28,421 nt of DNA. Origin: a virus. The stretch spans positions 1 to 28,421 of IMG/VR virus record IMGVR_UViG_3300047121_000173. The stretch is one strand, 5' to 3'. Position 1 is the stretch's first letter, and each line of letters begins with the position of its first letter. Below the pieces are notes generated by a model. It made no database searches and was not told where the DNA came from. It saw nothing but the letters and a program-made list of their open reading frames with translations. Below, one piece after another: positions 1,223 through 15,865 of the stretch. Made by a program: the position numbers and the translations under genes.

Positions 1223-1230
1223 GATAAATA
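1223..1230 (+). promoter_or_regulatory. T4-type late promoter, GATAAATA
   Basis: The octamer matches the T4-like late consensus (TATAAATA; NATAAATA in cyanophages) at 7 of 8 positions. Transcription would start about 6 bases downstream, near 1236, 16 bases before the ATG at 1252. The octamer is also the 5' arm of a hairpin, annotated separately. Confidence 0.7.
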
Positions 1231-1253
1231 CTCTAATAGAATGGAGTATTTAT
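1224..1253 (+). promoter_or_regulatory. Perfect 10-bp inverted repeat over late promoter, RBS and start codon
   Basis: ATAAATACTC (1224-1233) and GAGTATTTAT (1244-1253) are exact reverse complements separated by 10 bases. The 5' arm is the late promoter itself. The 3' arm covers the GAG of the ribosome binding site and the first two bases of the ATG at 1252. RNA arriving from upstream would hide the start; RNA begun at about 1236 would lack the 5' arm. Confidence 0.7.
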
Positions 1254-1419
1254 GGCTAAAATCGTAGAAGATGTTGTTGTAATCAAGTTCAGCAAAATCG
1301 TCAAGGATAATGACAAAGACGGCGCTGATATCGCCGGAGCGGAAGTATTAGCCGCACTAGAGCAAGTAGCACAAGAACTTGCCGGTGAAGGTATTGTCGT
1401 TGAGGCGGTGAAAGCGTGA
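1252..1419 (+). CDS. Small acidic protein, 55 aa, unknown
   Basis: The frame runs ATG to TGA: MAKIVEDVVVIKFSKIVKDN..., ending VVEAVKA. It has a GGAG ribosome binding site at 1244-1247 and a late promoter just upstream. The next gene starts at GTG 1416 inside its stop (GTGA), which suggests translational coupling. The pattern of beta strand, acidic loop and Ala-rich helix is compact and plausible as a folded small virion protein, but I do not recognise a family. Its place under a late promoter and next to probable virion genes suggests a structural or assembly role. Confidence 0.65.
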   Translation: MAKIVEDVVVIKFSKIVKDNDKDGADIAGAEVLAALEQVAQELAGEGIVVEAVKA

Positions 1420-1802
1420 GCCAGGTAACTATCCTCGAACTATTACCACAGACCACATATGATGGTGGCGGTACAGGTAATGTCTATACAGTGACAGGGA
1501 ACGCACAACCTGCTGCCGCTTATTATCTTGGTAATCAAGACCTACAGACTGTCAACATCAAGTTGGAAAATTGCTCGGGTAATATCATTATAGAAGCGTC
1601 ATTGAATAGCAATGTGTCGAATGCAGAATGGTTCAAAGTCTATGAACTAGTAGCCAATGCTAATGCCGCTAATGGTTCAGAGCCATACGATTCAAGCAAC
1701 GCTAGCATATACACAAACATCGAAGGTAATTTCGTATATATGAGAGCAAAGATTCAAGACTTTGCCGGTGGTGTAGTTAGTTTTGTTAAATTGAGTTATT
1801 AA
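1416..1802 (+). CDS. Probable virion structural protein, 128 aa
   Basis: The start is GTG 1416, overlapping the previous stop. The composition (Asn, Ala, Gly, Ser, alternating hydrophobic residues) and the ending FVYMRAKIQDFAGGVVSFVKLSY suggest an all-beta domain like those in phage fibre, decoration or neck proteins. No signal peptide or membrane segment is visible. It is coupled to the late-promoter gene upstream and sits 1 base before the next ATG, so it is probably expressed late. The assignment rests on composition and position; I cannot name a T4 homologue. Confidence 0.55.
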   Translation: MSQVTILELLPQTTYDGGGTGNVYTVTGNAQPAAAYYLGNQDLQTVNIKLENCSGNIIIEASLNSNVSNAEWFKVYELVANANAANGSEPYDSSNASIYTNIEGNFVYMRAKIQDFAGGVVSFVKLSY

Positions 1803-1803
1803 T

Positions 1804-3069
1804 ATGAAACAGATAGTCGTCATGCCAGGTGGTTTTCACCCATTTCACGCAGGACATTATGCGTTATACAAGAGCGCATTAGAAGCCTTTCCCGGTGCTG
1901 ATGTTTATGTGGCAGCGACTAACGATCAAAAAGTCAGACCGTTTCCCTTTGAGATCAAAGAGAAACTAGCCAAACTAGCAGGTGTGCAACCCGGACGTTT
2001 TGTTCAAGTCAAAAGCCCGTTCATGCCCAAAGAGATCACACAGAATTACGATCCAGAAAATGACGTAGTTATTTTTGTGCGTAGCGAGAAAGATCGTAGC
2101 GAACAACCTAAGCCAGGTGGTACCAAGAAAGATGGTAGTCCTGCATATTTTCAACCATATACAGGTAAAAATATGCAACCATTTGGTAAACATGCTTATA
2201 TCGATTATCTACCCACAGTAGAATTTGGTCCTGGTATAAAGAGTGCCACTGAGATACGTAATGCTTGGCCTAAACTTAACGATAAGCAAAAGACTGCAAT
2301 GGTCATGAGCCTATATCCTGCTACACAAAAGAATCAAAAGTTAGCAACAAACGTAGTGAAACTATTAGATGCTGGTATGGGTACTGATATAGATGAAGAT
2401 ATAAGTCGTAGAGGATTCTTGAAGGGGATAGGCGCTGCCGCTATGACGGGCGCCGGCGCAAGGGCATTAGCACAATCAGATGATGAAAAAAAGGCACAGG
2501 AACTTCGTAAGCAAAATTTAGAAAGAATGAGAGGTTTGGCATCCGGTGGCCGCTTAGCGGATCCAGGGCCAGGGGCAAATTATGCTCAAAGGTTGAGAGC
2601 AAGAATACTTCCCAACCTTGTATGGTCTCAGCCTACTTCAGGTAATCCTAATCCACGGGTAGAAGTAAAAATAAAACTAGCACAAGATGGTAGTATAATT
2701 TCTGTTGATGTAATGAAACCTAGTGGTGAAGATACATGGGATGAGGCATTTGTCAAGGCAATTCAAAAAGTAAGTCATTTTCCTAAAGACAGCGAAGGAA
2801 GAGTTCCTCCTGAAATACACATGGTTGGACAACCTAAACCTGCAAATACTAATGAAGATTTAAAATCATTATATACTAGAATCAAACCGTTAATTAACGA
2901 AGCACCCCCTGAACAAAAAGAAAAACTATTCAAGATATTGGAAGCCGCTAAGAAGAACTTTGAAGCAGCCAACCCTGCACAACAAGCGGCGATAGCAATA
3001 AGCATGAAAAAGCAGGGCAAGAAGCCTGCGAATGTTTCCGAAGCAGTCGATTATTTAGAAGAAAAATAA
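1804..3069 (+). CDS. Nucleotidyltransferase-like protein with internal Tat-like signal and TolA/TonB-like C-terminal domain, 421 aa
   Basis: Residues 1 to about 165 form a nucleotidyltransferase-like Rossmann domain: MPGGFHPFHAGH carries the HxGH motif of cytidylyl/adenylyltransferases, and a KSATEIR segment fits the later active-site motif. Residues 201-223 then read like a twin-arginine signal: SRRGFLKG, a hydrophobic Ala/Gly stretch, and ALA before Gln. Residues about 260-340 (YAQRLRARILPNLVW, NPRVEVKIKL, DGSIISVDVMKPSG, WDEAFVKAI) resemble the TolA/TonB C-terminal fold. The last 75 residues are helical and end in DYLEEK. An in-frame ATG at 2377 would put the twin arginines 10 residues in, as in a normal Tat signal, but has no clear ribosome binding site. 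The role is unknown; a virion or envelope-facing function is inferred. Confidence 0.7.
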   Translation: MKQIVVMPGGFHPFHAGHYALYKSALEAFPGADVYVAATNDQKVRPFPFEIKEKLAKLAGVQPGRFVQVKSPFMPKEITQNYDPENDVVIFVRSEKDRSEQPKPGGTKKDGSPAYFQPYTGKNMQPFGKHAYIDYLPTVEFGPGIKSATEIRNAWPKLNDKQKTAMVMSLYPATQKNQKLATNVVKLLDAGMGTDIDEDISRRGFLKGIGAAAMTGAGARALAQSDDEKKAQELRKQNLERMRGLASGGRLADPGPGANYAQRLRARILPNLVWSQPTSGNPNPRVEVKIKLAQDGSIISVDVMKPSGEDTWDEAFVKAIQKVSHFPKDSEGRVPPEIHMVGQPKPANTNEDLKSLYTRIKPLINEAPPEQKEKLFKILEAAKKNFEAANPAQQAAIAISMKKQGKKPANVSEAVDYLEEK

Positions 3070-3076
3070 TTTCATA

Positions 3077-3116
3077 CCCCTCAAAGCAAGTAAATATTCG
3101 TACAAGTTTTGAGAGG
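3077..3116 (+). promoter_or_regulatory. Hairpin holding a late-promoter-like element and hiding the RBS of the next gene
   Basis: Arms 3077-3087 and 3106-3116 pair over 10 of 11 positions, one of them G-U. The loop contains AGTAAATA (3089-3096), a 6-of-8 match to the T4 late octamer, 25 bases before the ATG at 3121. The 3' arm is the strong ribosome binding site GAGAGG (3111-3116). Confidence 0.5.
3089..3096 (+). promoter_or_regulatory. Weak late-promoter-like octamer AGTAAATA
   Basis: This matches TATAAATA at six of eight positions and has the same distance to its gene as the better sites. Transcription would begin near 3102, inside the hairpin loop. Confidence 0.35.
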
Positions 3117-3120
3117 ACAT

Positions 3121-3996
3121 ATGGCAAACAAAAAAACTAAAGATGAAGAGAAGACTGTTCCTGTAGAGCAGGTTCAAGAGATTGCGGCGGAAGCACTACA
3201 GAATCCGCCATCAGAGGGGCAACAACAGCCCGGACAGAATCAAGTACAAGTTAACGTTGATTTCTTACGTACTACTAGAGTACACATTGCTATGCCATGC
3301 TATGGCGGCATGTTAACTGAATCAACATTCATGAGTTTCATCAAGTGGGCTAATACAGCCCGTCAACTCGGTATTGACTGGACATTGGAAACAATGGTCA
3401 ATGAGAGTTTGATTAGCCGCGCACGTAATACACTTACTGCTAAGTTCCTCGATATGCCTGAAGCAACACACTTGTTCTTTGTTGACGCTGACATTGGTTG
3501 GGAACCATGGCACTTGTTGGTACTATTAAACCGTGACGTTGATGTTATCGGTGGATTGTATCCAATGAAGACTATGCCAATCAAGTGGGTAGTTAATGGA
3601 TTCGATGGTGCTGAAGAAGGTCCAGATGGACTACAAGAAGTCAGTAAAGCAGGTACAGGTTTCTTGTTGATGAAGAAGCATGTATTTGAGAAGATGAATG
3701 GTCACCCTGCTGTCAAGCAATACAAGAATGATATCGGATTAGATCCTAAGTACGACAAGCACTTAAAGACTTATTTCGATACAGCAGTTCGCCAAAATCG
3801 TTACTACAGTGAAGACTGGACATTCTGTGAGAACTGGCGTGATCTAGGTGGACGCATCTGGGTAGATAAGCGTGTATTGTTACGTCACTCAGGTAGTTAT
3901 GTGTTCTGTATGGAAAATCAACAGCATTTGTTGAATACTATAGGACCCATGTATCTACAAGAGCAAGAAGCGAAGAAAGCCCAAGAAGGCAAATAA
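3121..3996 (+). CDS. Glycosyltransferase, GT-A type, 291 aa
   Basis: After a charged, Gln-rich linker (residues 1-45), the protein shows the GT-A pattern: VHIAMPCYGGMLTE at the nucleotide-sugar site, NTLTAKFLDM, then FFVDADIGW with the DxD metal/UDP-binding motif (D122, D124), VIGGLYPMK, and AGTGFLLMKKHVF with an acceptor-side segment YSEDWTFCENWRDLGG. It probably transfers a sugar to a phage or host acceptor such as DNA, capsid or cell-surface glycan; the acceptor cannot be read from sequence. The start at 3121 is chosen for the GAGAGG ribosome binding site at 3111-3116; an in-frame TTG at 3109 would lie inside that site. The gene is followed directly by a terminator. Confidence 0.8.
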   Translation: MANKKTKDEEKTVPVEQVQEIAAEALQNPPSEGQQQPGQNQVQVNVDFLRTTRVHIAMPCYGGMLTESTFMSFIKWANTARQLGIDWTLETMVNESLISRARNTLTAKFLDMPEATHLFFVDADIGWEPWHLLVLLNRDVDVIGGLYPMKTMPIKWVVNGFDGAEEGPDGLQEVSKAGTGFLLMKKHVFEKMNGHPAVKQYKNDIGLDPKYDKHLKTYFDTAVRQNRYYSEDWTFCENWRDLGGRIWVDKRVLLRHSGSYVFCMENQQHLLNTIGPMYLQEQEAKKAQEGK

Positions 3997-3997
3997 A

Positions 3998-4026
3998 GAA
4001 AAAGCCCCGAAAGGGGCTTTTTCTTT
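3998..4026 (+). terminator. Rho-independent terminator with GAAA tetraloop
   Basis: An 11-bp perfect stem, GAAAAAGCCCC (3998-4008) with GGGGCTTTTTC (4013-4023), encloses a GAAA loop. It has T-rich sequence on the 3' side and starts 2 bases after the glycosyltransferase stop codon. Confidence 0.93.
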
Positions 4027-4055
4027 TCTAAGGTTTATTGCATCATGTGTTTTTA

Positions 4056-4063
4056 GATAAATA
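4056..4063 (+). promoter_or_regulatory. T4-type late promoter, GATAAATA
   Basis: This is the same octamer as at 1223, 9071 and 15429. It lies after the terminator, so the downstream block needs its own promoter. The predicted start is near 4069, 19 bases before the ATG at 4088. Confidence 0.75.
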
Positions 4064-4087
4064 ATACATAGTTATTGGATATTTATC
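4056..4087 (+). promoter_or_regulatory. Inverted copy of the late octamer directly before the start codon
   Basis: GATAAATA (4056-4063) and TATTTATC (4080-4087) are exact reverse complements with a 16-base spacer, and the second arm abuts the ATG. The downstream arm also reads as a late octamer on the minus strand. Confidence 0.6.
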
Positions 4088-5152
4088 ATGAAAATCAACG
4101 ACATCTTTGAAAGCACAACATCAGGCTCGGTCGCTAGCGTAGCGATGCCCATGGGAGGTACACAAAAACGTCCCGGCTCATTATTCAAGGGCAAAAAGAC
4201 CAACAAGAAATTCTATGAATCTGAGGTCAGCGAAGCCGAAGTAAACGAAGCAGACCTGATATTAGTTCCTGGCCAGGGCAAAAAGTTAAAGCCCGGATTT
4301 ATCCCTAAAGACAAAGATCGCACAGACCATGAAGTAGAGATGGCACGTAGCGATCTATATCAAGCAGCCAAGAATGCGCAAAAAGTATATGCATTAATAC
4401 AACACTTAAGCGAAGAAGAAGGCTTAGAGGGCTGGGTACAAGAAAAGATCATAAAAGCCAACGACTACCTAAACACTATACGTGAATATCTAGAGCATAA
4501 AACACATATGCAAGAAGGTGGTGTATTAGCGGGTGGCATGAGCAATTTTGAAGAAGGTGTTAGAGATTTAGGATATGATGCACAATCTCTTATTATGAAA
4601 CTACGCCGTGATATAGAAGAAAAAAGATTACAACCTACTCCACAAGCAGTATTAGCAGCCGCAAGAGAGTTAGCAGGTGATATGGATTTTGCACCTCAAC
4701 TATTAGTAAAACAAGTATTAGGACAAGGTGTGGCGGAAGGCAATGATGGCAGAGATAAACATTACTACCTACGCAACGACATTTGGAGAGTCATGGACGG
4801 TGACGAACTAGTACACGAATATAAACCAGAACGTTATGAAGTTGTTGGTGCTAAAAAGTTATTGGCCCGTTTCGACGATGAAGGTTATGATGTTACTCAC
4901 GTTATTAGTCCAATGGGGACTGTTACATATCTGTATGGCAAACCCGACATGGACGAAGGCGCGGCGGAAGGCAAATGTGTTGAGTGTGGCGGACCTTCTT
5001 ATAGCGAGGAAAGTATTGCCGAAGCAAAAGATGCTTGCTATAATAAAGTCAAGAGCCGTTATAAAGTATGGCCATCAGCGTATGCATCAGGTGCATTAGT
5101 CAAGTGCCGTAAAGTAGGCGCAAGCAACTGGGGCAACAAGAGCAAAAAATGA
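4088..5152 (+). CDS. Modular virion/internal protein with capsid-targeting-like N-terminus, 354 aa
   Basis: It begins MKINDIFES, like the N-terminal peptides of T4 internal proteins that the prohead protease removes after a (L/I)xE site. Modules follow, separated by Glu-rich junctions (VSEAEVNEADL, GQGVAEG, GAAEGKC, ESIAEAKDA): a helical module (about residues 60-135, EVEMARSDL...GWVQEKIIKANDYLNTIREYLEHK), a second helical module (to about 215), a beta module (YYLRNDIWRV...VTYLYG) and a C-terminal Cys-containing basic module (ACYNKVKSRYKVWPSAYASG...VKCRKVG). I recall these modules, especially the last, from T4-like aquatic phage virion proteins. The layout suggests a precursor cut during head maturation. 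It shares an ATGA overlap with the next gene. Confidence 0.65.
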   Translation: MKINDIFESTTSGSVASVAMPMGGTQKRPGSLFKGKKTNKKFYESEVSEAEVNEADLILVPGQGKKLKPGFIPKDKDRTDHEVEMARSDLYQAAKNAQKVYALIQHLSEEEGLEGWVQEKIIKANDYLNTIREYLEHKTHMQEGGVLAGGMSNFEEGVRDLGYDAQSLIMKLRRDIEEKRLQPTPQAVLAAARELAGDMDFAPQLLVKQVLGQGVAEGNDGRDKHYYLRNDIWRVMDGDELVHEYKPERYEVVGAKKLLARFDDEGYDVTHVISPMGTVTYLYGKPDMDEGAAEGKCVECGGPSYSEESIAEAKDACYNKVKSRYKVWPSAYASGALVKCRKVGASNWGNKSKK

Positions 5153-5577
5153 GACAGTATATCAATCTAATAGAAGCAGTAGAGAAAGGTTGTCCTCGTG
5201 CCACATTCGATATCGACCTTAATCTAAAGAATCGTCAAACTGCTATAGATGAATATATGTATGGGCCTGCTAATCCAGATAAGCCGGGCTCCTATTGGAA
5301 AGATATGAGCAAAGTTTTCAAAGTAGACGAAGCAACAGCCAAGTCTATGATGTGCGGTAATTGTGCGGCATTTGATGTAAGTGACAGTATGCGCAAGTGT
5401 ATATCAGATGGCATCAAGGGTGATGAAAAGAATATAGATAGCAATGCTACTATCAATCTAAGTGATTTGGGTTACTGCAATTTTTTACATTTCAAATGTG
5501 CAGGCAGTCGTAGTTGTAAAGCCTGGGTGACAGGTGGTCCTATCACTGAAAAAGACAAAGGTGGGAAGGCTGACTAA
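5149..5577 (+). CDS. Cysteine-rich protein with capsid-targeting-like N-terminus, 142 aa
   Basis: It starts MRQYINLIEA, which fits a prohead-protease leader cut after LIE. The body has a CGNC pair (MMCGNCAAF), RKC, then GYCNFLHFKC...SCKAWVTGGPI. The clustered cysteines suggest a metal or iron-sulfur site; the CxxC, YC, KC and SC-AW arrangement is vaguely like high-potential iron-sulfur proteins, but I cannot assign the fold. The 4-base overlap with the gene upstream and 1-base gap to the gene downstream place it in the same late operon. A packaged internal protein is the most likely role, by position and leader. Confidence 0.6.
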   Translation: MRQYINLIEAVEKGCPRATFDIDLNLKNRQTAIDEYMYGPANPDKPGSYWKDMSKVFKVDEATAKSMMCGNCAAFDVSDSMRKCISDGIKGDEKNIDSNATINLSDLGYCNFLHFKCAGSRSCKAWVTGGPITEKDKGGKAD

Positions 5578-5578
5578 T

Positions 5579-6139
5579 ATGAGATACCGTCAAATACTAG
5601 AAGCATGTTGGAAAGGTTACAGGCGTGTGCCGGGTACCAAAGCCAACACTCCTGGTAGTTGCAAAAAGGTTAGTGAAGATCAGATAAGTGATGAAAAAGT
5701 ACGCAGAATTCAAAATTTCTTGAACGACAAGTTCGATGCTAACTTAGATGTTGATGGTGTGTTAGGTCCATTGACACTAAAAACTATAGACAAGTTTATG
5801 CCTGACGCTAAAAAGCGTTTAGCACCGGAGCCAGACAAGAATACAAATGTTCAAGGATTAGAGAAAAAACTAACTGAACAAGAATTAGAAGAAGATTTAC
5901 GTAAGTGGTTCAAAGAAAAGTGGGTTCGTTTCGGACCAGATGGAAAGATTCGCGGAGCATGTGCAAGAGGTAGTGGTAGCGAAGGTAAGCCTAAATGTTT
6001 ACCACAGAGCAAAGCACATAGTTTAGGAAAGAAAGGTCGTGCAAGTGCGGCAGCACGTAAGCGCAGAGAAGATCCTAATCCAGAGCGCAGTGGTCCAGCA
6101 AAGAACGTAGCGACTAAAAGCAAAAGAGATAAGAAATGA
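5579..6139 (+). CDS. Virion-associated protein with peptidoglycan-binding-like domain and basic Cys module, 186 aa
   Basis: The ATG at 5579 gives MRYRQILEA, another capsid-targeting-like leader; the longer frame from 5534 would overlap the previous gene and hide it. Next comes CWKGYRRVPGTK...CKKV, a small basic Cys module. About residues 42-73 (VRRIQNFLNDKF...DVDGVLGPLTLKTIDKFM) match the helical peptidoglycan-binding pattern (D-G-x-x-G-P-x-T). The C-terminal third has WFKEKWVRFGPDGKIRG, CLPQSKAHSLGKK and a very basic Arg/Lys tail, a module I associate with T4-like aquatic phage virion proteins. It may bind cell wall on entry or pack with DNA. It overlaps the next gene by 4 bases. Confidence 0.6.
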   Translation: MRYRQILEACWKGYRRVPGTKANTPGSCKKVSEDQISDEKVRRIQNFLNDKFDANLDVDGVLGPLTLKTIDKFMPDAKKRLAPEPDKNTNVQGLEKKLTEQELEEDLRKWFKEKWVRFGPDGKIRGACARGSGSEGKPKCLPQSKAHSLGKKGRASAAARKRREDPNPERSGPAKNVATKSKRDKK

Positions 6140-7077
6140 GTAGCATAATAAAAGGTCTTCAGACCGAAGCAAATAATGATTTTAATGTAGCCGTGCCCGG
6201 ATACGGTACAGTGCCATTGGAAATGTTGAAGCGCCATGTTAAAGAGTTGACTAAAGATTTCAACGAAATGGTACAAAGTGAAGAGTTCATCAAAGCCGCT
6301 TATCGCACAGAGCAATTATATAACGCATTGTTCGCATTGAGCAAAGCGATGAAGGCTAAGTCAATGGAAGAAGGCTATGCAGCCGGTATTACCGGCGGTG
6401 CAGGATTAGGTATTGAAAAAAGCCCAATAGAAAAAGTAATAGAGAAACCATTGGGTGAAACTATTCAATCAAGTCAAGGTGGCATGGGTCAGAGTTATCG
6501 TAAATTCACGCCTAAGTCAGCAGGAACAAGTGAAAGATTAGATGAATTAAGTCCCGAGACTCTTGCGAAATACAAGAAAGCCGCAGGCGCAGATGCAAGC
6601 AAAGCAGATAGTGAAGGCGATTTTGAACGTGGCAATAAAAGATTCAGTGGCATAGTTCGTGCTACTAAAAAAGAATTTGATCAGGATGCTAAGAAAGTAA
6701 AAGAAGAACAAGCACCGATGTTCACACCTGAAGAAAATCTTAGTGAACTAAAACAAGATACTATTGATGATTACATAAGCAGAAAGTCGGCATTGGCAAG
6801 AGGTGGTTTACCTGAACCTAGCAAGAAATTTGGTAATGTCAAAGCTCCGGCTTGGAAAGTGGCTGCCGGTAAGATAGCAAAGCCCGGTAGCGAAATGGAA
6901 AAATATGCAAAAGTAAAAGCGACACTTGAAGATGAAGCAAAAATTGTAAATGCTAATGACCCACGTAGTGATGGATGGCGCGTTTATGATGCTGTTCCAG
7001 CCGGCACTAAAGAAAGTTCTATCATGAAGGGTCTACAAAACGAAGTAAAAGGCAATGGGCCATTTGAAAGAAAGTAA
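6136..7077 (+). CDS. Probable internal virion protein, 313 aa
   Basis: It starts MSSIIKGLQTEA, a variant of the leader peptide with a possible cut after LQTE. An almost identical phrase, SSIMKGLQNEV, recurs near the C-terminus, so a leader-like unit is present at both ends. A helical domain (VPLEMLKRHVKELTKDFNEM...YRTEQLYNALFALSKAMKAK, about residues 27-75) is followed by Gly-rich and Lys/Glu-rich low-complexity stretches with several LxE/EE junctions. No enzyme motif is visible. It lies in the block of leader-bearing proteins and is coupled by ATGA to the gene upstream. The family is unknown to me. Confidence 0.6.
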   Translation: MSSIIKGLQTEANNDFNVAVPGYGTVPLEMLKRHVKELTKDFNEMVQSEEFIKAAYRTEQLYNALFALSKAMKAKSMEEGYAAGITGGAGLGIEKSPIEKVIEKPLGETIQSSQGGMGQSYRKFTPKSAGTSERLDELSPETLAKYKKAAGADASKADSEGDFERGNKRFSGIVRATKKEFDQDAKKVKEEQAPMFTPEENLSELKQDTIDDYISRKSALARGGLPEPSKKFGNVKAPAWKVAAGKIAKPGSEMEKYAKVKATLEDEAKIVNANDPRSDGWRVYDAVPAGTKESSIMKGLQNEVKGNGPFERK

Positions 7078-7195: not shown

Positions 7196-7200
7196 AAAAC

Positions 7201-7641
7201 ATGCTAGCAGACAGTTTAAAAACATTATTAGCGAATAGTTATGCTTTCACTATCAAAGCACAACAGTTCCATTGGAACGTAGAAGGTCCAAACTTCCCTC
7301 AGTACCATGAATTCTTCGGTGATCTATATGGTGAAGTATACGGATCCATAGACAAGACAGCAGAATATATCAGAACATTAGACAGTTATGCACCAGGTAG
7401 CCTAGAGCGATTCGCGGAACTTTCACAGATACAAGGGCAAGTAAAGATTCCACGTGCTGAATTAATGTTCGCAGAACTTGAAAGTGATAACAGAATAATA
7501 CTTGAATGTTTGAATCATTGTATGGGTTTCGCGAAACAAGAAAATGCATTTGGTATTGAGAACTATATCGCTGAACGCATCGATGCACATGCTAAACATG
7601 GTTGGATGCTAAGAGCAACACTCAAAAAAGAGAGAGCGTAA
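7201..7641 (+). CDS. Dps-like ferritin, 146 aa
   Basis: The protein carries the Dps signature FHWNVEGPNF with spacing that matches the E. coli ferroxidase ligands: H24, H36 (+12), D51 (+15) and E55 (+4), corresponding to H51, H63, D78 and E82. The fifth E. coli ligand (D67) is not at the exact position; D41 is one residue away. The C-terminal helix ERIDAHAKHGWMLRATLK is also family-typical. Dps proteins form 12-mers that oxidise iron and shield DNA from peroxide. The N-terminus is short and lacks the Lys-rich DNA-binding tail of E. coli Dps, so DNA binding is uncertain. It sits among virion-type genes, so it may protect phage DNA late in infection or be packaged. Confidence 0.87.
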   Translation: MLADSLKTLLANSYAFTIKAQQFHWNVEGPNFPQYHEFFGDLYGEVYGSIDKTAEYIRTLDSYAPGSLERFAELSQIQGQVKIPRAELMFAELESDNRIILECLNHCMGFAKQENAFGIENYIAERIDAHAKHGWMLRATLKKERA

Positions 7642-7646
7642 AGTGT

Positions 7647-8222
7647 ATGCGTATCGTGGAATTTGTATTAGATGAGACTAGTCCCGATACGTTAGAAGGT
7701 AGTTTCACCGATGACCTCATACAGAGCAAGACATGGCTTTGTAAAAAACTCAAAGAAGGACTCAAAGGTAAATGCGCACGAACTATCTATGTGTTAGGTA
7801 GTTGGTACGGTAACCTTGCTATGCTATTGCAACAAGAAGGCATAGTGTTTGATGAGATTGTGTTAATAGAGAATGATGAAGACAAACTACGAGCCAGCGC
7901 ACAATTATTAAAACCGTTCTTCAAGCCCGGCAAATTAGTATTTCTAAACACTGATGCTAGAGATGTGATCTATGATAAGCCCGGCATCATCATAAACACA
8001 AGCGTGAACGATATGAAACCTAGTTGGTATGACGTTGTACCCGATGGCTATCGTGTGATAATTCAAGGTCGTGATCAGGCTGACGGGGCAGTCACTAAGA
8101 TAGCAGATATGGAACAATTTGATGATATGTTTGCTATGCGCAAAGTAAACTATCTAGGTACTAGAGATTTTACAGATCCAGAGACACGATATAGTAGATA
8201 CATGAAGATAGGTAAAAAATGA
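7647..8222 (+). CDS. Methyltransferase-like Rossmann protein, 191 aa
   Basis: The ATG at 7647 is preferred over an upstream TTG at 7602 that would lie inside the Dps-like gene. The pattern YVLGSWYGNLAMLL, then IVLIENDEDKLRAS about 20 residues later, then FLNTDARDVI, fits motif I, the acidic ribose-binding residue and motif II of class I SAM-dependent methyltransferases. The glycine motif (GSWYGNL) is atypical and I see no catalytic motif such as DPPY, so activity and substrate are open. The C-terminal half (DMFAMRKVNYLGTRDFTDPET) is unfamiliar. It overlaps the next gene by 4 bases (ATGA). Confidence 0.55.
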   Translation: MRIVEFVLDETSPDTLEGSFTDDLIQSKTWLCKKLKEGLKGKCARTIYVLGSWYGNLAMLLQQEGIVFDEIVLIENDEDKLRASAQLLKPFFKPGKLVFLNTDARDVIYDKPGIIINTSVNDMKPSWYDVVPDGYRVIIQGRDQADGAVTKIADMEQFDDMFAMRKVNYLGTRDFTDPETRYSRYMKIGKK

Positions 8223-9043
8223 GAGCAAATGAATTTGTAAAAGAAGGCGTCAACGATCCTGCTATCTTTAAGGTAGTGTTTGTTATCGGTGGTCCTGGTA
8301 GTGGCAAGAGTTATATATCAGACCGCTTAGGACTGAATGCTATGGGTTTTGTCACAATCAACAGTGATGTGGCATTCGAATACATGATGAAGAAACATGA
8401 CATCGATCCCAAGATGCCTCCTGAAGAAAAAGAAAAGCGTGATACAGTAAGAGCGAGAGCCAAACAGGTTACAGGTAAAAAAAGTGATCTTGCTATAGAG
8501 GGTAGACTGGGTATTCATGTAGACGGTACCGGCGATGATTATGATAAGATTGCCAATCTTAAAAGAAATTTTGAATTGCTAGGTTACGACACATATCTTG
8601 TAGTAGTGAACACCAAACTTGAAGTAGCAAAACAACGTAATCAAATGAGAACAAGAACTGTTCCTGATAAAATAGTGACTAACAGTTGGTATGATGTTCA
8701 GGACAATATAGGTCGTTTTGCTAATGTGTTTAAATTTCTAAGCATTATCGACAATAGCGGCGATAAAGAAGCGACTGAAATGCAGATAAACAAAACGCAC
8801 AGCAAACTAAAACAATTTGTCGCAGAACCACCGTCAAGACCTGCCGCAAAAGAATGGATCGCAAGCCAAAAAAACACGAATGAAGCGTCATATGCAGGTA
8901 ATCTAGGGGCTATGGAAATGATTAAATTCAAACAAGTCGCCAGTCCCGAACTATGGGCTTTGATGAAAAAATTGATAGCAGACGGGAAAGAAGAAGAAGC
9001 ATGGTTACTATTGCAGAAGGTTACCAAAACTAAGTTACAGTAA
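8219..9043 (+). CDS. P-loop kinase-like (zeta-toxin-like) protein with capsid-targeting-like N-terminus, 274 aa
   Basis: Residues 18-31 hold a Walker A motif (KVVFVIGGPGSGKS; K30, S31), followed by INSD, a helical insertion, LAIEGRLGIHVDGTGDDY, and a basic LID-like segment RNQMRTRTVPDKIV. This resembles the zeta-toxin/AAA_33 kinase fold, which phosphorylates nucleotides, sugars or RNA ends. The N-terminus MRANEFVKEG resembles the leader peptides of the neighbouring virion proteins. The C-terminal 50 residues (YAGNLGAMEMIKFKQVAS...EEAWLLLQKVTKTKL) form a small helical module I recall from other phage proteins. If the leader is real, this enzyme would be packaged in the capsid. The substrate is unknown. 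Confidence 0.68.
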   Translation: MRANEFVKEGVNDPAIFKVVFVIGGPGSGKSYISDRLGLNAMGFVTINSDVAFEYMMKKHDIDPKMPPEEKEKRDTVRARAKQVTGKKSDLAIEGRLGIHVDGTGDDYDKIANLKRNFELLGYDTYLVVVNTKLEVAKQRNQMRTRTVPDKIVTNSWYDVQDNIGRFANVFKFLSIIDNSGDKEATEMQINKTHSKLKQFVAEPPSRPAAKEWIASQKNTNEASYAGNLGAMEMIKFKQVASPELWALMKKLIADGKEEEAWLLLQKVTKTKLQ

Positions 9044-9070: not shown

Positions 9071-9078
9071 GATAAATA
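9071..9078 (+). promoter_or_regulatory. T4-type late promoter, GATAAATA
   Basis: Exact copy of the octamer at 1223 and 4056. The predicted start is near 9084, giving a 20-base leader with the ribosome binding site GTGAGGA (9091-9097) before ATG 9104. No long inverted repeat surrounds this copy. Confidence 0.72.
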
Positions 9079-9953: not shown

Positions 9954-9976
9954 TTCTCTGTGATTTGTGATAAAAT
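9949..9976 (+). promoter_or_regulatory. Sigma70-like promoter TTGACT-N16-TAAAAT
   Basis: The -35 is at 9949-9954 and the -10 at 9971-9976, five of six matches in each. Transcription would begin about 9983, at the A of the next start codon. Confidence 0.7.
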
Positions 9977-9982
9977 AATATC

Positions 9983-10428: not shown

Positions 10429-10501
10429 ATTTAGAACATTCGTATATATAATTACATCACTAATAATTTTATTCGGAGTAATAGCATATGTTGTACAGTA
10501 A
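10403..10501 (+). CDS. Possible single-pass membrane microprotein, 32 aa
   Basis: An ATG inside the end of the previous gene opens a frame of 32 codons: MELFRLTVRFRTF followed by VYIITSLIILFGVIAYVV. A basic amphipathic start plus an 18-residue hydrophobic helix is the usual form of small phage membrane proteins. It fills the 59-base gap between two genes and overlaps the next start by 14 bases. No clear ribosome binding site is present, so this is tentative. Confidence 0.35.
   Translation: MELFRLTVRFRTFVYIITSLIILFGVIAYVVQ
10425..10452 (+). promoter_or_regulatory. Possible weak promoter with perfect -10 TATAAT
   Basis: TATAAT occurs at 10447-10452, with a poor -35 (TTAGAT, 10425-10430) 16 bases upstream. 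It lies 36 bases before the ATG at 10488. The -35 does not match the TTGACT of the better promoters. Confidence 0.3.
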
Positions 10502-10676
10502 ACCTGAACATGAGTGGGATGATCTTGACATCTATGACCGCGAAGCAGCCGACATTCGTAGATCATTGCGCAAGATTAATCTACATCAATGGGTACAGGA
10601 TTTATATTCACTAGATCCTGACCTATTTGACAATCTTCAAAAGTTTATGAATCAAACTGGCGGTCATCGCCGTTAA
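10488..10676 (+). CDS. Small phage protein, 62 aa, unknown
   Basis: The product MLYSKPEHEWDDLDIYDREA... is acidic at the front, then helical (ADIRRSLRKINLHQWVQDLYSLDPDLFDNLQKFMNQ) and ends GGHRR. No motif is recognised. A GGAG at 10475-10478 lies before ATG 10488 at acceptable spacing. It is the last gene before the late promoter of the exported-protein operon. Confidence 0.55.
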   Translation: MLYSKPEHEWDDLDIYDREAADIRRSLRKINLHQWVQDLYSLDPDLFDNLQKFMNQTGGHRR

Positions 10677-10704
10677 ATACGCAGTCTTTTCTTTATTGTT
10701 TCAA

Positions 10705-10712
10705 AATAAATA
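10705..10712 (+). promoter_or_regulatory. T4-type late promoter, AATAAATA
   Basis: Seven of eight match to TATAAATA. The predicted start near 10718 gives a leader of about 49 bases containing the hairpin at 10723-10743. Confidence 0.65.
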
Positions 10713-10722
10713 GTTGTATACA

Positions 10723-10743
10723 CTAGAAGACACAATCTTCTAG
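10723..10743 (+). promoter_or_regulatory. 5' leader hairpin
   Basis: CTAGAAGA (10723-10730) and TCTTCTAG (10736-10743) form a perfect 8-bp stem with a 5-base loop, starting about 5 bases after the predicted late transcription start. A 5'-terminal stem-loop of this kind often stabilises mRNA. Confidence 0.65.
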
Positions 10744-10766
10744 GCTTACAACAGGGAACAATAAAA

Positions 10767-11981
10767 ATGATAAGAAAGATCCTTGTGTTGGCCATGATCG
10801 CTGCCAGTATAGGCGGCATGCCAGCATATGCACAAACAACAACAAGCGCGACCGGCGTATCCGGTACTACTACTACAACTTCCGGTACTATTCCTCCTAT
10901 CAACCAAGGCGGATATACTACCACTTCATTAGTAGATACAAATAGTACTAGCAATAGTACCAGTACTGTTACTACCAATAATACTACGACTACAAATAAT
11001 AACAGCACTAGTATTAGTACAGTAAACAGTAACAATACTAATGCATCCACTTCAACGAACGTTAACACGAACAACAATATTAATAGTGGTACTGTGACTA
11101 ATATAAATCAGAATACCAATAGTGGTACGATGACTTATAATAACAATAATGTTCAAAGCGGTACATTGACTAACAACAATAACAATAATAATGTTATGAG
11201 TGGTTCTGTAACAAATAACAACAATAATGTCAATAGCGGCACTATGACATACAACAATAATAACAATACTAATAGTACTAACACAAATAACAATGTTATG
11301 AGTGGTAGTGTAACTTACACTAACAATAATGTTAATAGCGGTACACAAACATTCAATAACAATAATGTAAGTAGTGCTACAAATAATAACACAAACACCA
11401 ATATCAATACTGGTGATATGACTAACCGTAACATCAATACTAGTACTTCAACATCAAATAATGTGAATACTAATAACAATGTTAACACTGGTGACATGAC
11501 TAATCGTAACATTAATACTAGCACTTCAGCATCAACGAACGTCAATACCAATAATAATAACACGATGAGTAATAACACTAATGTTAATATTCAGCAAGGT
11601 GAGATGACTAACCGCAATATCAATGAGACTAGAGTTACTCAAAAGATAGAGCAACCTCCCCCAACTGCTATCGCTCCTGCAATGATGAGCGTGGGTAGTG
11701 ATCTTTGCGTGACTGGTGTAGCGGGTGCGGCACAGACTCAAGTATTAGGTGTAAGTTTCGGCTCAACTATGCGTGATGACAATTGTGAAAGATTGAAACT
11801 AAGCAAGACACTATATGACATGGGTATGAAAGTTGCAGCCGTAGCAACTATGTGTCAAGATCGCAGAGTATTTGATGCTATGATGAGTGCCGGCACACCT
11901 TGCCCATTCGAAGGTAAGATAGGTGAAGAAGCAAAAATGGCATGGGCCGCAAATCCAGATAAGATACCTAAACTGAAATGA
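10767..11981 (+). CDS. Exported Asn/Thr-rich repeat protein with conserved C-terminal domain, 404 aa
   Basis: Residues 1-22 are a Sec signal peptide (MIRKILVLAMIAAS, then PAYA before Gln). Residues about 25-290 are low complexity, Asn, Thr and Ser, with about ten units built on [NV]-x-SG-[TS]-x-T or TGDMTNRNIN separated by Asn runs; the last units are near-identical pairs (NTGDMTNRNINTSTS). The periodic polar pattern suggests a beta-solenoid or amyloid-like fold, loosely like curli repeats. About residues 305-404 are a compact domain with SDLCVTGVAGAAQTQVLGVSFG, three further Cys and CQDRRVFDAMMSAGTPCPF, which I associate with exported proteins of T4-like aquatic phages. Function is unknown; an envelope or extracellular role is inferred. 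Its TGA overlaps the next ATG. Confidence 0.75.
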   Translation: MIRKILVLAMIAASIGGMPAYAQTTTSATGVSGTTTTTSGTIPPINQGGYTTTSLVDTNSTSNSTSTVTTNNTTTTNNNSTSISTVNSNNTNASTSTNVNTNNNINSGTVTNINQNTNSGTMTYNNNNVQSGTLTNNNNNNNVMSGSVTNNNNNVNSGTMTYNNNNNTNSTNTNNNVMSGSVTYTNNNVNSGTQTFNNNNVSSATNNNTNTNINTGDMTNRNINTSTSTSNNVNTNNNVNTGDMTNRNINTSTSASTNVNTNNNNTMSNNTNVNIQQGEMTNRNINETRVTQKIEQPPPTAIAPAMMSVGSDLCVTGVAGAAQTQVLGVSFGSTMRDDNCERLKLSKTLYDMGMKVAAVATMCQDRRVFDAMMSAGTPCPFEGKIGEEAKMAWAANPDKIPKLK

Positions 11982-13831
11982 TAAAGAAATTAGTATTAGC
12001 AATTCTATTAGCATATACTACCGCTGTGTCTGCACAGAATGTAAATCCTACTACGGGTACTGTATCAGTAACACCTAATGTCATTGATCCATCACTTTGG
12101 ACTCCTGTTATTCCTATGAATTCAAGTCAACTAGGTCAAGTTGAAGGAGCAGGAGGCGGTCCTATTCCTGCACTTAACACTGATACAAATACAATACGAT
12201 TTAGTTTTATGCCATATACAGTTAGCCAAGTACGTGCTATTGAACAAGTGCTAAGTGGTAACGGCATTAAAGTTTCAGGATTTAATTATTCATGGCAAAT
12301 TTATAATGATCTAAGCAATGAAAGTGGAACTAGAGGTCCATTAAATGTCACTGGACAATTAGCAGATAAGAATGGTTCAGTACTAGAATCTTATTTTGAA
12401 GATTACAGTAACTTTAATACAGGTGCAAGATTCGTAACATTTTCAGGCACTGAAAATTTTTCAAAGTCATATAATTTAGAAACATTGGGCTATATAGGAT
12501 TAGCATGGACTGGTAGTGATACGAACTCTTGGAGTGGTTATTATGGTCCTAGAGTTCGCAACACCTCACTGACTTTAAACTATAGTGTGGCTCCGACTTC
12601 ACCGTCCACACCCACAACACCTAGTACGACTGCAACAGTTGCCGGAGCTCCTACACCATTAGACATAGCAGATACTTTTAGTAAACCTCCACCAGAATCA
12701 GACACCGCAACTCAGCAAACACGACAAACACAGTCAGGAAGTCAACCTCCTCCGGGTTCAGAACCCGCTCCAGGAAGCCAACCGCCTCCTAACGGCACTC
12801 CTACTAGTACTCCTAGTAGTAATCCACCCCCTAGTAATGAGCAAGTTAGAGTTGCTGATACAGGCTCTCCTAATACAAATAGACCAAGAGAAGAGAGAAG
12901 TCAAATATCTGCGAGTTCAAACACATCTACAAATACTGCTAAAACAGAATCAAATACAACATCAGGACCATCATTGTCATCTGTCATGGCTATGATACAG
13001 TCTAATCAGGCTAGAGAAAATAATATAGCAATGTCTGCGGTCGCACAGGCTAATGAAGTGGCTCAAACAGCAGTAGCGCAAGCAGAAAAAACTGCTATAG
13101 AAACTGCTAGTACTAGTCTTGCACAAAGTTTAGATGTTGCTAAAGATTCTGCTAAGAGTGAAACTAAAGATAACAAGACAAATGTGAATTCAAGTTTATC
13201 ATTATTACCATCTTCATCTGGTCCTTTTGTGGTACAAGGAAGTTCAAATATAGTACAACAAAGTCAATTGTTGTCTAACCAATTGAGTTTACCAGTCAAT
13301 ACATTCAATAATCAACAACAGCAAGCATCATCTGTAACTAATAATAGTTTGACTAGTACATCTGGATTATATAACAGACCAGAAGTAAATATACCCCTGC
13401 CACCTACTATGCAAGAGATGGCGCAACAATCAGAAATAAAACCAGCGTCAGCACCAAGCAATATATCTATTCAGCAAGTAGAACAACCAAACAATAGTAT
13501 GTCATTATTTGCTAGACGAGGTGATCCTCTAACTGATTATATCGAACAGAATAATATATTAGTTGCTATGGCTCAACCTGAAACAAAATCCGCGACAGTA
13601 AAAACAAATGTGCAGGATAATGAACTTGCAGGTATTGTTAGAATAGAAAGAATGGCTGTGACTCCAGTAGGATTTAATGTATATTCATTAGCATTACGCG
13701 ATGTAGCATTCTATCAGCCTAAAGAGATTTATAAGAATGTTGTCATCAAAGACAATGTTAGAACTATGTATTTTATCGAAAAGGGAAATACAGACACATA
13801 TAATAAGATGATAGAGGCGCAATACAAATGA
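11978..13831 (+). CDS. Exported protein with beta domain, Pro/Ser/Thr-rich linker and conserved C-terminus, 617 aa
   Basis: A Sec signal peptide is clear (MIKKLVLAILLAYTTAVSA before Gln). Residues about 40-205 form a beta-rich domain (IRFSFMPYTVSQV, GFNYSWQIYND, GLAWTGSDTNSW, RNTSLTLNYSV). Residues about 208-300 are a Pro/Ser/Thr-rich linker with PPPGSEPAPGSQPPP. A long Ala/Gln/Ser helical region follows (about 325-390), then a Ser/Gln/Asn region, and a folded C-terminal domain of about 100 residues (DPLTDYIEQNNILVAMAQ...MYFIEKGNTDTYNKMIEAQ). It is translationally coupled to the repeat protein upstream and has the same export route, so the two probably act together at the envelope. No enzyme motif is seen. 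Confidence 0.72.
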   Translation: MIKKLVLAILLAYTTAVSAQNVNPTTGTVSVTPNVIDPSLWTPVIPMNSSQLGQVEGAGGGPIPALNTDTNTIRFSFMPYTVSQVRAIEQVLSGNGIKVSGFNYSWQIYNDLSNESGTRGPLNVTGQLADKNGSVLESYFEDYSNFNTGARFVTFSGTENFSKSYNLETLGYIGLAWTGSDTNSWSGYYGPRVRNTSLTLNYSVAPTSPSTPTTPSTTATVAGAPTPLDIADTFSKPPPESDTATQQTRQTQSGSQPPPGSEPAPGSQPPPNGTPTSTPSSNPPPSNEQVRVADTGSPNTNRPREERSQISASSNTSTNTAKTESNTTSGPSLSSVMAMIQSNQARENNIAMSAVAQANEVAQTAVAQAEKTAIETASTSLAQSLDVAKDSAKSETKDNKTNVNSSLSLLPSSSGPFVVQGSSNIVQQSQLLSNQLSLPVNTFNNQQQQASSVTNNSLTSTSGLYNRPEVNIPLPPTMQEMAQQSEIKPASAPSNISIQQVEQPNNSMSLFARRGDPLTDYIEQNNILVAMAQPETKSATVKTNVQDNELAGIVRIERMAVTPVGFNVYSLALRDVAFYQPKEIYKNVVIKDNVRTMYFIEKGNTDTYNKMIEAQYK

Positions 13832-14022
13832 ATGAACTTGACAAAATAAATTATAAGGACTTTGATGAGATGAATGATGAAGAAAAGCAAATCTATCTTA
13901 GAAATAAAAATTATATGGTCACGAACTACTTGGGTGTAGATACACCTTTAAGGAGTATGAAAGCAAGATTACAAGCATACCTAGATGAGACTAGGAAATA
14001 CAGACCCAGTATTTGGGATTAA
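13828..14022 (+). CDS. Small charged protein, 64 aa, unknown
   Basis: The product MNELDKINYKDFDEMNDEEK... is highly charged and mainly helical (YLRNKNYMVTNYLGVDTPLRSMKARLQAYLDETRKY). It overlaps the exported protein gene by 4 bases (ATGA) and is followed by an AAGGAG ribosome binding site for the next gene. No motif is recognised. Confidence 0.55.
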   Translation: MNELDKINYKDFDEMNDEEKQIYLRNKNYMVTNYLGVDTPLRSMKARLQAYLDETRKYRPSIWD

Positions 14023-14036
14023 GGAGAAAAACAAAA

Positions 14037-14627
14037 ATGCCAAGAGAGAAACAAGAAGTAGACATCGATAGCAAAGTTGATGATTTAGAAGCCGCTAAAG
14101 AAAAATATCTTAGCGAAAACACAGTTATTAGTATCGGTGGTTATGCTTTTACTCCGGCTAAGTTAATGATAGCAGCCGGTATATTATCATCAGTACTAGG
14201 TGGTCTTTATGCTTCATTTGAATTCTATAAAGATTATATGAATATGAAGGATGCTATCGCTAATTATGTCAGCCCTGATTTTACTGGGGTAGAAACACGA
14301 TTGACTAAGATAGAAAAAACTCAAGAAAGCATAGTCATATTAGTACAGCAAAATCAGGATATGGTTCGTGCTGTGAGAAGCGATCTTAAAGCAGACATAG
14401 ACCGTGTAGAGGCAGCAGTTGATGCCGCAGAACGCAGAGGTCGTGAATTAGATCGTGATACACGTAGTTTTGTTAATAATAGCGATAAACGTTTAGGTGA
14501 TACTGAGCGTGATCTACAGGGTAGAATCAGAAACATAGAGCGTGAGACTGATGCTAAGTTGAGAGAACTAGAGAAGAAAGTAGACGAGAAGATCAAGAAA
14601 GCATGGGAAAACCCATTAGCAAAGTAA
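14037..14627 (+). CDS. Membrane-anchored coiled-coil protein, 196 aa
   Basis: The ATG at 14037 follows a strong AAGGAG (14021-14026). The protein has a charged N-terminal tail (about 40 residues), one membrane helix (KLMIAAGILSSVLGGLYASFEF, about residues 45-66), and then about 110 residues of heptad-rich coiled coil (RLTKIEKTQESIVIL...RNIERETDAKLRELEKKVDEKIKK). This topology resembles inner-membrane proteins with a long periplasmic or cytoplasmic rod, such as spanin-like or tethering proteins. It is last in the operon with the two exported proteins, so a role at the host envelope or in lysis is a reasonable guess, without a diagnostic motif. Confidence 0.62.
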   Translation: MPREKQEVDIDSKVDDLEAAKEKYLSENTVISIGGYAFTPAKLMIAAGILSSVLGGLYASFEFYKDYMNMKDAIANYVSPDFTGVETRLTKIEKTQESIVILVQQNQDMVRAVRSDLKADIDRVEAAVDAAERRGRELDRDTRSFVNNSDKRLGDTERDLQGRIRNIERETDAKLRELEKKVDEKIKKAWENPLAK

Positions 14628-14634
14628 TCTAACA

Positions 14635-14687
14635 TACACCCATCTGTAAAATAAATATCTTAATGATTTTATATACAAATGGGTGTA
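14635..14687 (+). promoter_or_regulatory. Large stem-loop enclosing late promoter and start codon
   Basis: TACACCCAT (14635-14643) and ATGGGTGTA (14679-14687) are exact complements. TGTA/TACA (14645-14648 with 14674-14677) and AAAT/ATTT (14649-14652 with 14666-14669) extend the stem past one mismatch and a 4-base bulge. The start codon 14663-14665 lies at the edge of the loop; the late octamer spans the 5' inner arm and loop. Confidence 0.6.
14650..14657 (+). promoter_or_regulatory. T4-type late promoter, AATAAATA
   Basis: Seven of eight match to the consensus. The ATG lies after only 5 intervening bases, so the predicted transcript starts on the A of ATG 14663. Confidence 0.65.
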
Positions 14688-15433
14688 GTTTCACTTGGGG
14701 CGGAAGTCTAGATCATATATTTTGTGATGGTAATCTTTGTGAGGTAGATGAAGATAAAAGACTACCTATATTATGGCCCCACCATTTAGGTAAGTTATTG
14801 AACGCTGATTCCGTCGTTAATCTGTCTGATGGTTGCGGTAGCAATCAACGTATAGTAAGAACCACTTATAATTGGTTACGATCAAAGACAGTCGAAGAAT
14901 TAAAAGAAACAACAGCAGTCATACAACTCACCGAATGGTCTAGATTTGAGATGTATGATCCACATGATATCGAAAATGAATGGGCAGAAGATCCAGTAGA
15001 TTGGATAAAATGCAAAGTAGATTTAGTCGCGCATGAATATAATCATTATCCTAAAAGCAACTTCAATAGAGATATACTACTTAAAAAAGCAACACACACA
15101 TTAAAGAACACGCATCCACTAGAGCATTTTTATAGAAACATAGGATATATGTATGCACTACAGGGTATGTTCAATGCATTTGGTGTGAAGGATTTTTATA
15201 TATGGAACCATAGTCATGCATGGCATTTCTGGCCCAAAGAACATAGAGATGCTATATTCAATACTTTCAAGGTACTAGACGAAGTACATGACTGGGAAAA
15301 GTTCCGTTGGTCTGACGACTATTGGGTCTATGATCGTGTAAGCAAAAATGACTGGCACCCCAGTGTTCACGGACATATAGAACTAGCAAACGTCATACAT
15401 GATCGCATGAAGCGTAAAGGCTACAGGGGATAA
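14663..15433 (+). CDS. SGNH/GDSL-like hydrolase family protein, 256 aa
   Basis: The N-terminal phrase NGCSFTWGGS (S9) fits block I of SGNH hydrolases with a serine nucleophile, and KNDWHPSVHGH (D230, H232) fits block V with the Asp-x-His pair. In between, GCGSNQRIVR may supply the block III Asn. SGNH enzymes are esterases or deacetylases, often acting on carbohydrates; in phages they may trim surface glycan or O-acetyl groups. A second, divergent SGNH-like protein is at 24065. I recall the NGCSFTWG family as common in T4-like aquatic phages. No ribosome binding site precedes the ATG, and the promoter geometry suggests a leaderless mRNA. Confidence 0.7.
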   Translation: MILYTNGCSFTWGGSLDHIFCDGNLCEVDEDKRLPILWPHHLGKLLNADSVVNLSDGCGSNQRIVRTTYNWLRSKTVEELKETTAVIQLTEWSRFEMYDPHDIENEWAEDPVDWIKCKVDLVAHEYNHYPKSNFNRDILLKKATHTLKNTHPLEHFYRNIGYMYALQGMFNAFGVKDFYIWNHSHAWHFWPKEHRDAIFNTFKVLDEVHDWEKFRWSDDYWVYDRVSKNDWHPSVHGHIELANVIHDRMKRKGYRG

Positions 15434-15436
15434 ATA
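15429..15436 (+). promoter_or_regulatory. T4-type late promoter, GATAAATA
   Basis: Exact copy of the common octamer, overlapping the stop codon of the SGNH gene. As at 14650, exactly 5 bases separate it from the next ATG (15442), so a leaderless transcript is predicted. Confidence 0.65.
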
Positions 15437-15441
15437 CACTA

Positions 15442-15825
15442 ATGCGTACAGAAGATTTCATGACATCAAGGGTAGACAAAGCGAAAGAAGTTAAAAAATT
15501 CGCTGAGTGGGCCTGCCAAAAACTAAACATCAAAAACCCTCCTAAGATCGAACTAAGCATGGATACTGAGGAAGCACAAAGTAACCATCATACGGGCGGG
15601 CATGTCATCGGTGGAGACAGCATATGGGTATATGCTAGGAACAGAAACCTAGTAGACATATTGCGTACCGTTTTTCATGAATTGGTTCATGTCCGTCAGG
15701 GTGAATTAGACATGGTAGACCAACATGACAGTTATCCAGGTAGCGCGATAGAGAGCATGGCCGACATGCTAGCCGGAAAATATATAAAGATTTACGGTGA
15801 AAAGAATAATCATATCTTCCAATAA
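15442..15825 (+). CDS. HExxH metallopeptidase-like protein, 127 aa
   Basis: The core motif VFHELVHVRQG gives two zinc-binding histidines (H79, H83) and the catalytic Glu (E80). SAIESMAD, 21 residues later, provides a likely third ligand (E104), as in gluzincin or SprT/M48-like small peptidases. The domain is short (127 aa) and has no signal peptide, so it would act in the cytoplasm or the virion. The N-terminus MRTEDFMTSR resembles, weakly, the leader peptides of the 4088-9487 block. An alternative start is ATG 15460. The substrate is unknown; a maturation protease or a peptidase against host proteins are both possible. Confidence 0.7.
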   Translation: MRTEDFMTSRVDKAKEVKKFAEWACQKLNIKNPPKIELSMDTEEAQSNHHTGGHVIGGDSIWVYARNRNLVDILRTVFHELVHVRQGELDMVDQHDSYPGSAIESMADMLAGKYIKIYGEKNNHIFQ

Positions 15826-15828
15826 CTA

Positions 15829-15857
15829 TTGATACTTTCTACCCATTGATATATAAT
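15829..15857 (+). promoter_or_regulatory. Sigma70-like promoter TTGATA-N17-TATAAT
   Basis: The -35 is at 15829-15834 and a perfect -10 at 15852-15857. The predicted start is at about 15864-15865, the first base of the TilS start codon. Confidence 0.78.
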
Positions 15858-15865
15858 AGTGGGTA
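15840..15865 (+). promoter_or_regulatory. Inverted repeat around the -10 box, ending on the start codon
   Basis: TACCCATT (15840-15847) pairs with AGTGGGTA (15858-15865): seven Watson-Crick pairs and one G-U. The loop is the -10 region, and the last paired base is the A of ATG 15865. It could be an operator or an RNA hairpin. Confidence 0.55.

Follow-up and report, generated by a model that had tools for sequence, protein, structure and literature searches.

Predicted T4-type late promoters in an uncultured giant phage clade: a probably hairpin-locked minority and an apparently leaderless class

Does a phage that transcribes its genes in one direction bury its late promoters in hairpins, so that RNA reading through from upstream is not translated, and is this a genome-wide scheme? 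The original prediction had named seven late-like octamers, five in hairpins reaching a ribosome site or start codon (1223, 3089, 4056, 10705 and 14650) and two outside such hairpins (9071 and 15429), and had placed all genes on one strand. The window, by which we mean the whole stretch of DNA analysed, is a 28,421-base IMG/VR fragment with nearly all, rather than all, of its genes on the + strand. No near DNA match to it was found among deposited phages, and Rfam and tRNA scans of the window gave no matches. In the family B polymerase, the window shares 47% identity with Agrobacterium phage Atu_ph07 and ~43% with Sinorhizobium phage Phosso, Xanthomonas phage XaC1 and the CBB/GAP32 group, all of them giant phages of the T4 superfamily. 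Via the gene at 21900, 80 related contigs of up to 352 kb were collected, and further ones were obtained via other genes. Most of the large relatives encode a gp55-type late sigma factor (phrog_234 profile matches, E ~1e-20 to 1e-25), as do cultured giant phages; gp55 was not found within the 28-kb fragment itself. In the window phage, too, the octamer would be recognized by gp55. We consider it quite likely that the window originates from a giant T4-related phage with gp55-type late promoters in three arrangements, a minority of which is hairpin-locked.

Six of the seven octamers are exact copies of NATAAATA on the + strand (1223, 4056, 9071, 10705, 14650 and 15429). The seventh, at 3089, reads AGTAAATA and is one base off, yet its GTAAATA is invariant in 19 aligned sequences (the window and 18 orthologues). 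An eighth octamer was located within a gene at 1078. With 9 octamers observed and 11.9 expected, the window is not enriched in the motif; what departs from chance is the placement before starts. For 298 distinct sites in the window and its relatives, octamer-to-start distances, counted from the octamer end, group into three classes: one of 4-6 nt (85 sites), one of 15-29 nt and a long class peaking near 60 nt. Distances of 7-14 nt are almost absent. Six control motifs (anagrams of similar composition) gave flat distributions without distance classes, and the short-distance peak is shared by just two single-base variants of ATAAATA, namely CTAAATA and, weakly, ATAAGTA. A TATAAATA-like octamer lies about one turn upstream of the predicted start, and from motif and placement we class the octamers as T4-type late promoters, N(A/C)TAAATA. 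In T4, the A at -12 contacts gp55 (PMC7892883), so the late octamer spans -13 to -6 and +1 therefore lies six bases after the octamer. All start-site statements made here rest on this T4 spacing rule, and the +1 positions are predicted. The features of the window are compiled in the table.

Table. Predicted late-promoter octamers, hairpins and associated genes in the window.
Feature	Position	Strand	Remarks
Octamer GATAAATA	1223..1230	+	Doubles as 5' arm (ATAAATACTC) of predicted hairpin
Hairpin ATAAATACTC...GAGTATTTAT	1224..1253	+	Covers SD (GGAG) and ATG 1252 of 55-aa gene (1252-1419)
Hairpin CCTCAAA...TTTTGAGAGG	3079..3116	+	Around AGTAAATA (3089-3096); 3' arm is SD region of gene ending 3996
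Octamer GATAAATA and hairpin GATAAATA/TATTTATC	4056..4087	+	Directly before ATG 4088
Octamer GATAAATA	9071..9078	+	25 nt before ATG 9104; ordinary SD leader
Nested hairpins	10690..10765	+	Around octamer AATAAATA (10705-10712); gene 10767-11981
Stem ACACCCAT/ATGGGTGT	14636..14688	+	Encloses predicted leaderless start; 3' arm in first codons
Octamer AATAAATA	14650..14657	+	ATG 14663 5 nt downstream, predicted leaderless; gene 14663-15433 (DUF6071-like)
Octamer GATAAATA	15429..15436	+	ATG 15442 5 nt downstream, predicted leaderless
Variant octamer (C)CTAAATA	20108..20115	+	21 nt before ATG 20137 (clamp-like gene); variant common to many relatives
Clamp-sized gene	20137-20859	+	Follows polymerase; placed and sized like sliding clamp

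We propose that gp55-type late promoters of the form [ACGT][A/C]TAAATA, at -13 to -6, would be used in three arrangements. In the first, the mRNA would have a leader with a Shine-Dalgarno (SD) sequence and the start would lie 13-34 nt downstream; the second would have a long leader, often with a 5'-proximal stem; the third would be apparently leaderless, +1 being the A of the ATG. In a minority, about a tenth of the families as judged by long perfect arms, the promoter would be placed in a hairpin, in its loop or its 5' arm, with the ribosome site or the start forming the 3' arm. Readthrough RNA arriving from upstream would carry the 5' arm, so that the ribosome site would be hidden and translation blocked. 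RNA begun at the internal late promoter would lack the 5' arm and be translated. At such lock-type sites one arm would be absent from T4-type late transcripts because it is located at or upstream of the octamer. The support observed comprises the motif placement, arm pairing beyond chance, compensatory change, the missing SD in the third arrangement and gp55 in the relatives.

Three sites, 1223, 3089 and 10705, have an arm that coincides with or precedes the octamer and is predicted to pair with the ribosome site, a pairing kept in orthologues. Among 54 distinct orthologue upstreams of the 55-aa gene at 1252, 43 have the octamer; the arm reaches 10 bp in 17 of these 43 and at least 9 bp in 24, and all 11 octamer-less upstreams are without the GGAGTATTT arm. 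Covariation is not visible at this site (within-family swaps, p=0.37) because the arms are nearly invariant. For the 3089 hairpin, native arms in 22 orthologue upstreams pair at -11.8 kcal/mol compared to -9.7 kcal/mol in within-family swaps (0/5000 permutations), and pairing on the minus strand is as good as on the plus strand. Two families in all gave this result of 0/5000 permutations with swapped arms pairing less well. At 10705, the decisive pairing is predicted to be the outer one, between TTTATTGTTTC upstream of the octamer and the ribosome site GGGAACAATAAA, and not the obvious inner stem CTAGAAGA/TCTTCTAG, which lies within the late leader and so is retained in the predicted late RNA. 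Five orthologues (L437, L438, L440, L445 and L479) keep the outer pairing with different letters; pairs found in orthologues are TTGTTCC/GGAACAA, ATTCCCTA/TAGGGAAT and GATTGCT/AGCAATC.

Of the five hairpins originally proposed, these three show conserved pairing. Support for the predicted hairpin at 14650 is moderate; here the diverged G004 orthologue has a stem of different letters in the corresponding position, ATCCATTAG/CTAATGGAT. Support is weak at 4056, where the octamer is kept in 15/16 orthologues and the predicted pairing is not better than in within-family swaps (p=0.25). In addition, a two-way intrinsic terminator at 3995-4026 means that readthrough into 4088 is already limited. Compared to shuffles of the upstream 40 bases, 3089 (z ~ -4), 10705 and 14650 are ~4 s.d. 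more stable; this test cannot judge 1223 and 4056, because there the octamer itself is the arm. At 9071 no convincing occlusion of the ribosome site was found, in agreement with its assignment as hairpin-free.

The best promoter-in-hairpin case is located outside the window, in a repetitive MAI.GN... gene of relatives that is probably fibre-like. All of its distinct upstreams (37/37) fold around the octamer, and slid structures are far worse than the native one. Doubly changed cells numbered 19 versus 5.1 in shuffles, none of which (0/500) reached 19. In the stem, G-U pairs are ~2x as frequent as A-C pairs, and this excess points to + strand RNA. Compensatory change is thus documented in these alignments by statistics for 3089, by inspection for 10705 and by a formal test for the fibre-like gene. 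The idea of an occluding stem with an internal promoter is upheld at several genes by conservation and compensatory change.

To quantify arms across promoter families, the left arm was defined as 25 nt upstream, the octamer and 4 nt, and the right arm as the stretch from the start site to the start codon. In the swap null, left arms were taken from other gene families, which keeps composition while related sites are not fully independent. Perfect arms of at least 9 bp were present at 11 of 99 leadered sites, with 1.3 expected from arm swaps. In a larger set, arms of at least 8 bp occur in 8.8% of 90 leadered families, compared to 2.3% in swaps and 0.9% at 432 promoterless SD starts; promoters and controls are hence not equal in frequency, and the observation stands under the refuting condition originally set for it. 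In this set, arms of at least 9 bp were found in 5.9% of families (0.5% in swaps and 0.5% at promoterless SD starts). Leaderless sites, with the first codons as right arm, likewise show an excess (12.6% versus 3.1% of families). On these counts, the predicted promoter-in-hairpin arrangement exists and recurs, but in roughly one in ten promoter families, leadered and leaderless alike, and the claim of a genome-wide scheme does not stand. Neither does the claim of a new density. With the same script, which recovered several known T4 promoter-in-hairpin sites, arms of at least 8 bp were obtained at 8/26 leadered octamers of T4 (the segB upstream included), where some stem from overlapping divergent promoters and the swap null alone predicts about half, and at 6/32 leadered octamers of the 352-kb relative. 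By this measure, long-armed promoters are no rarer in T4 than in the relative, and the T4 cases are textbook (PMC3014915, PMC2988022). Taken together, the original observation is partly confirmed and its interpretation partly supported.

Several other origins of the hairpins have to be weighed. In A+T-rich sequence they could be chance products, since ATAAATA is nearly self-complementary to TATTTAT, which is frequent before ATG. The site at 4056 is of this kind, mean pairing energies are little different from those of swaps, and swaps account for about half of the T4 8-bp arms. However, arms of at least 9 bp are ~10x as frequent as in the swap null and at the promoterless-start control, arms outside the octamer co-vary, and octamer-less orthologues are without the arm. 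These findings largely rule out chance at 1223, 3089 and 10705 and for the fibre gene, and as a general explanation we regard it as distinctly unlikely. Even less probable are overlapping divergent late promoters, one per strand, as the source of the palindromes. The 3' arms at 1247-1253 and 4080-4086 indeed read ATAAATA on the - strand, and T4 has such pairs between genes 4/53, inh/segE and 26/51, but there is no convincing - strand gene upstream at 1223 or 4056, and a second octamer is missing from the arms at 3089, at 10705 and in the fibre gene. The stems might also act in the late mRNA or in the DNA, as protection of the mRNA 5' end, as a repressor/operator site or as a replication hairpin, and not as readthrough locks. 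This is unlikely as well. While many long leaders have 5'-proximal stems downstream of the start, the 10705 inner stem persists in late RNA and 3089 pairs equally well on both strands, the lock sites have one arm at or upstream of the octamer and the other on the SD or start, and the G-U pairs of the fibre gene favour + strand RNA. Locking against readthrough is the reading we prefer.

The octamer at 15429 had been set aside as hairpin-free. It has no claimed hairpin, but turned out to belong to an unusual class in which the ATG coincides with the predicted +1: here, and likewise at 14650, exactly 5 nt separate the octamer from the ATG, which puts the ATG at the T4-type +1. A scan with the 15442 protein returned many matches without a recognisable upstream start and five informative, distinct orthologue contexts; the 5-nt spacing is conserved in all five, the first base being G, C or T. 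In two large relatives, 28/78 and 24/76 start-linked octamers (52/154) have a spacing of 4-6 nt, as do 10/28 in the window and a 100-kb relative. The corresponding number for T4, KVP40, S-PM2, Phosso, Atu_ph07, Vibrio phage 2.275.O and CBB is 0/288 (52/154 versus 0/288, Fisher p=2e-27), Phosso and Atu_ph07 being represented by 400 kb each and KVP40 by 200 kb. For whole-genome counts, gene starts were taken from a simple ORF caller; families were defined by BLAST clustering. An SD of at least 4 nt was present at 2.8% of the leaderless-class sites (versus 62-66%), and the start codons at offset 5 were ATG (91), GTG (3) and TTG (8). Judging by spacing, roughly one late promoter in three in this clade appears to place the first base of the mRNA at the start codon itself, and these mRNAs would be translated from the 5' AUG.

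The mRNAs of this class would not be leaderless if the true start codon was located further downstream or transcription started further upstream, and the 5' ends are indeed predicted from sequence here. We nevertheless judge this improbable. An alternative in-frame start with an SD within 57 nt is available in only 1% of the leaderless-class families. N-termini align with those of leadered orthologues: 22 families comprise leaderless as well as leadered members, and in 18 of them the start codons are no more than 3 residues apart in the alignment. The 4-6 nt peak is sharp and almost exclusively ATG. On balance, we favour the view that a giant T4-like clade has built its late programme on leaderless mRNAs, with +1 at the A of the ATG for about 1/3 of the late promoters, and that part of the leaderless and leadered promoters is hairpin-locked against readthrough, translation needing a fresh 5' AUG or a late start.

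The hairpin lock itself is already known from T4, and what is found here is neither a general scheme nor a new density. In T4 e, soc, 49 and I-TevI, a late promoter lies inside a hairpin sequestering the RBS, and further cases are I-TevII, I-TevIII and segB as well as Aeh1 mobE (PMC3014915, PMC2988022). Like T4 e, soc, 49 and I-TevI, the present sites have the octamer in the loop or 5' arm and the 3' arm on the SD or AUG, so that readthrough RNA would be occluded and late RNA free. An RBS or AUG within a helix whose 5' arm is at or upstream of the late start was found at 1223, 3089, 10705 and in the fibre gene of the relatives. Unlike in T4, the predicted locks belong to genes, fibre-like and others, of giant phages from an uncultured clade known here from sequence, compensatory change extends across dozens of orthologues, and one gene uses a conserved GTAAATA variant. 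These sites indicate that selection maintains the T4 lysozyme-type lock in uncultured giant phages as well, and that it is more than a T4 curiosity.

The more unusual part is the third of late promoters predicted to be leaderless. The lambda cI mRNA is leaderless, and the present class resembles it and the leaderless mRNAs of mycobacteria in its predicted 5'-terminal AUG without SD. Mycobacterial leaderless transcripts are known (PMC4633059). Unlike known leaderless mRNAs, the class described here stands at a constant 5-nt distance from a T4-type late promoter and would comprise ~1/3 of the late promoters. For the giant phages CBB and GAP32, ATAAATA late promoters were predicted upstream of structural genes together with a gp55-like sigma factor, and they share both motif and sigma factor with the present clade; in the part of that paper considered here, neither hairpins nor a leaderless class are reported (PMC5259590). 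In our counts CBB has 0/47 leaderless sites, unlike the present clade. No report of leaderless T4-type late mRNAs was found in the open-licence papers searched. The data point to leaderless late mRNAs at large scale in a T4-type phage, which bears on ribosome use late in infection. Since starts 5 nt past a late octamer and without SD are easily missed, this class also bears on gene calling in such genomes.

Some further features were noted. Upstream of the 3089 gene family, GTAAATA is kept in 22 orthologues, though the A at that octamer position contacts gp55 in T4. A CTAAATA late-type promoter precedes the clamp-sized gene after the polymerase in many relatives (20108-20136 in the window); the window gene matched no Pfam family. 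As this gene carries CTAAATA, a replication gene may also be expressed late. In the relatives G009 and G034, octamers 4-6 nt before an ATG without SD occur throughout. Late leaders of 50-70 nt in relatives have a stem-loop at the predicted 5' end and leave the SD free, for example at G005 57981 (-), G025 70341 (+), G016 61958 (-) and L037 14595. In leaders of the MSYNKTKTDPELG family, the stem letters vary and the loop CACAA(C/A)GG is nearly constant, which suggests a conserved RNA element or a protein binding site. A zinc-ribbon, HNH-like gene family of relatives (L050 13238, L071 12704) that probably encodes a homing endonuclease carries a hairpin with a promoter inside (CCGATGAT/ATCATCGG in L071), in parallel to I-TevI and mobE.

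We considered whether the leaderless class consists mainly of genes with capsid-targeting-like N-termini and rejected this, as the classes do not differ. Such N-termini (MKINDIFES, MRQYINLIEA, MRYRQILEA and MKIFEVIEA) are found among the consecutive genes 4088, 5149, 5581, 6136, 8219 and 9104 and resemble the T4 capsid-targeting sequences, which are cleaved after xxE. By this resemblance, the six genes possibly encode a battery of packaged and injected proteins. Relatives of the 4088 protein also contain repeated VAEG. Cargo genes in the window comprise a ferritin/Dps-like protein, a Zeta-toxin-like kinase and a PP-loop ATPase (TilS-like), at 7201-7641, 8219-9043 and 15859-16464.
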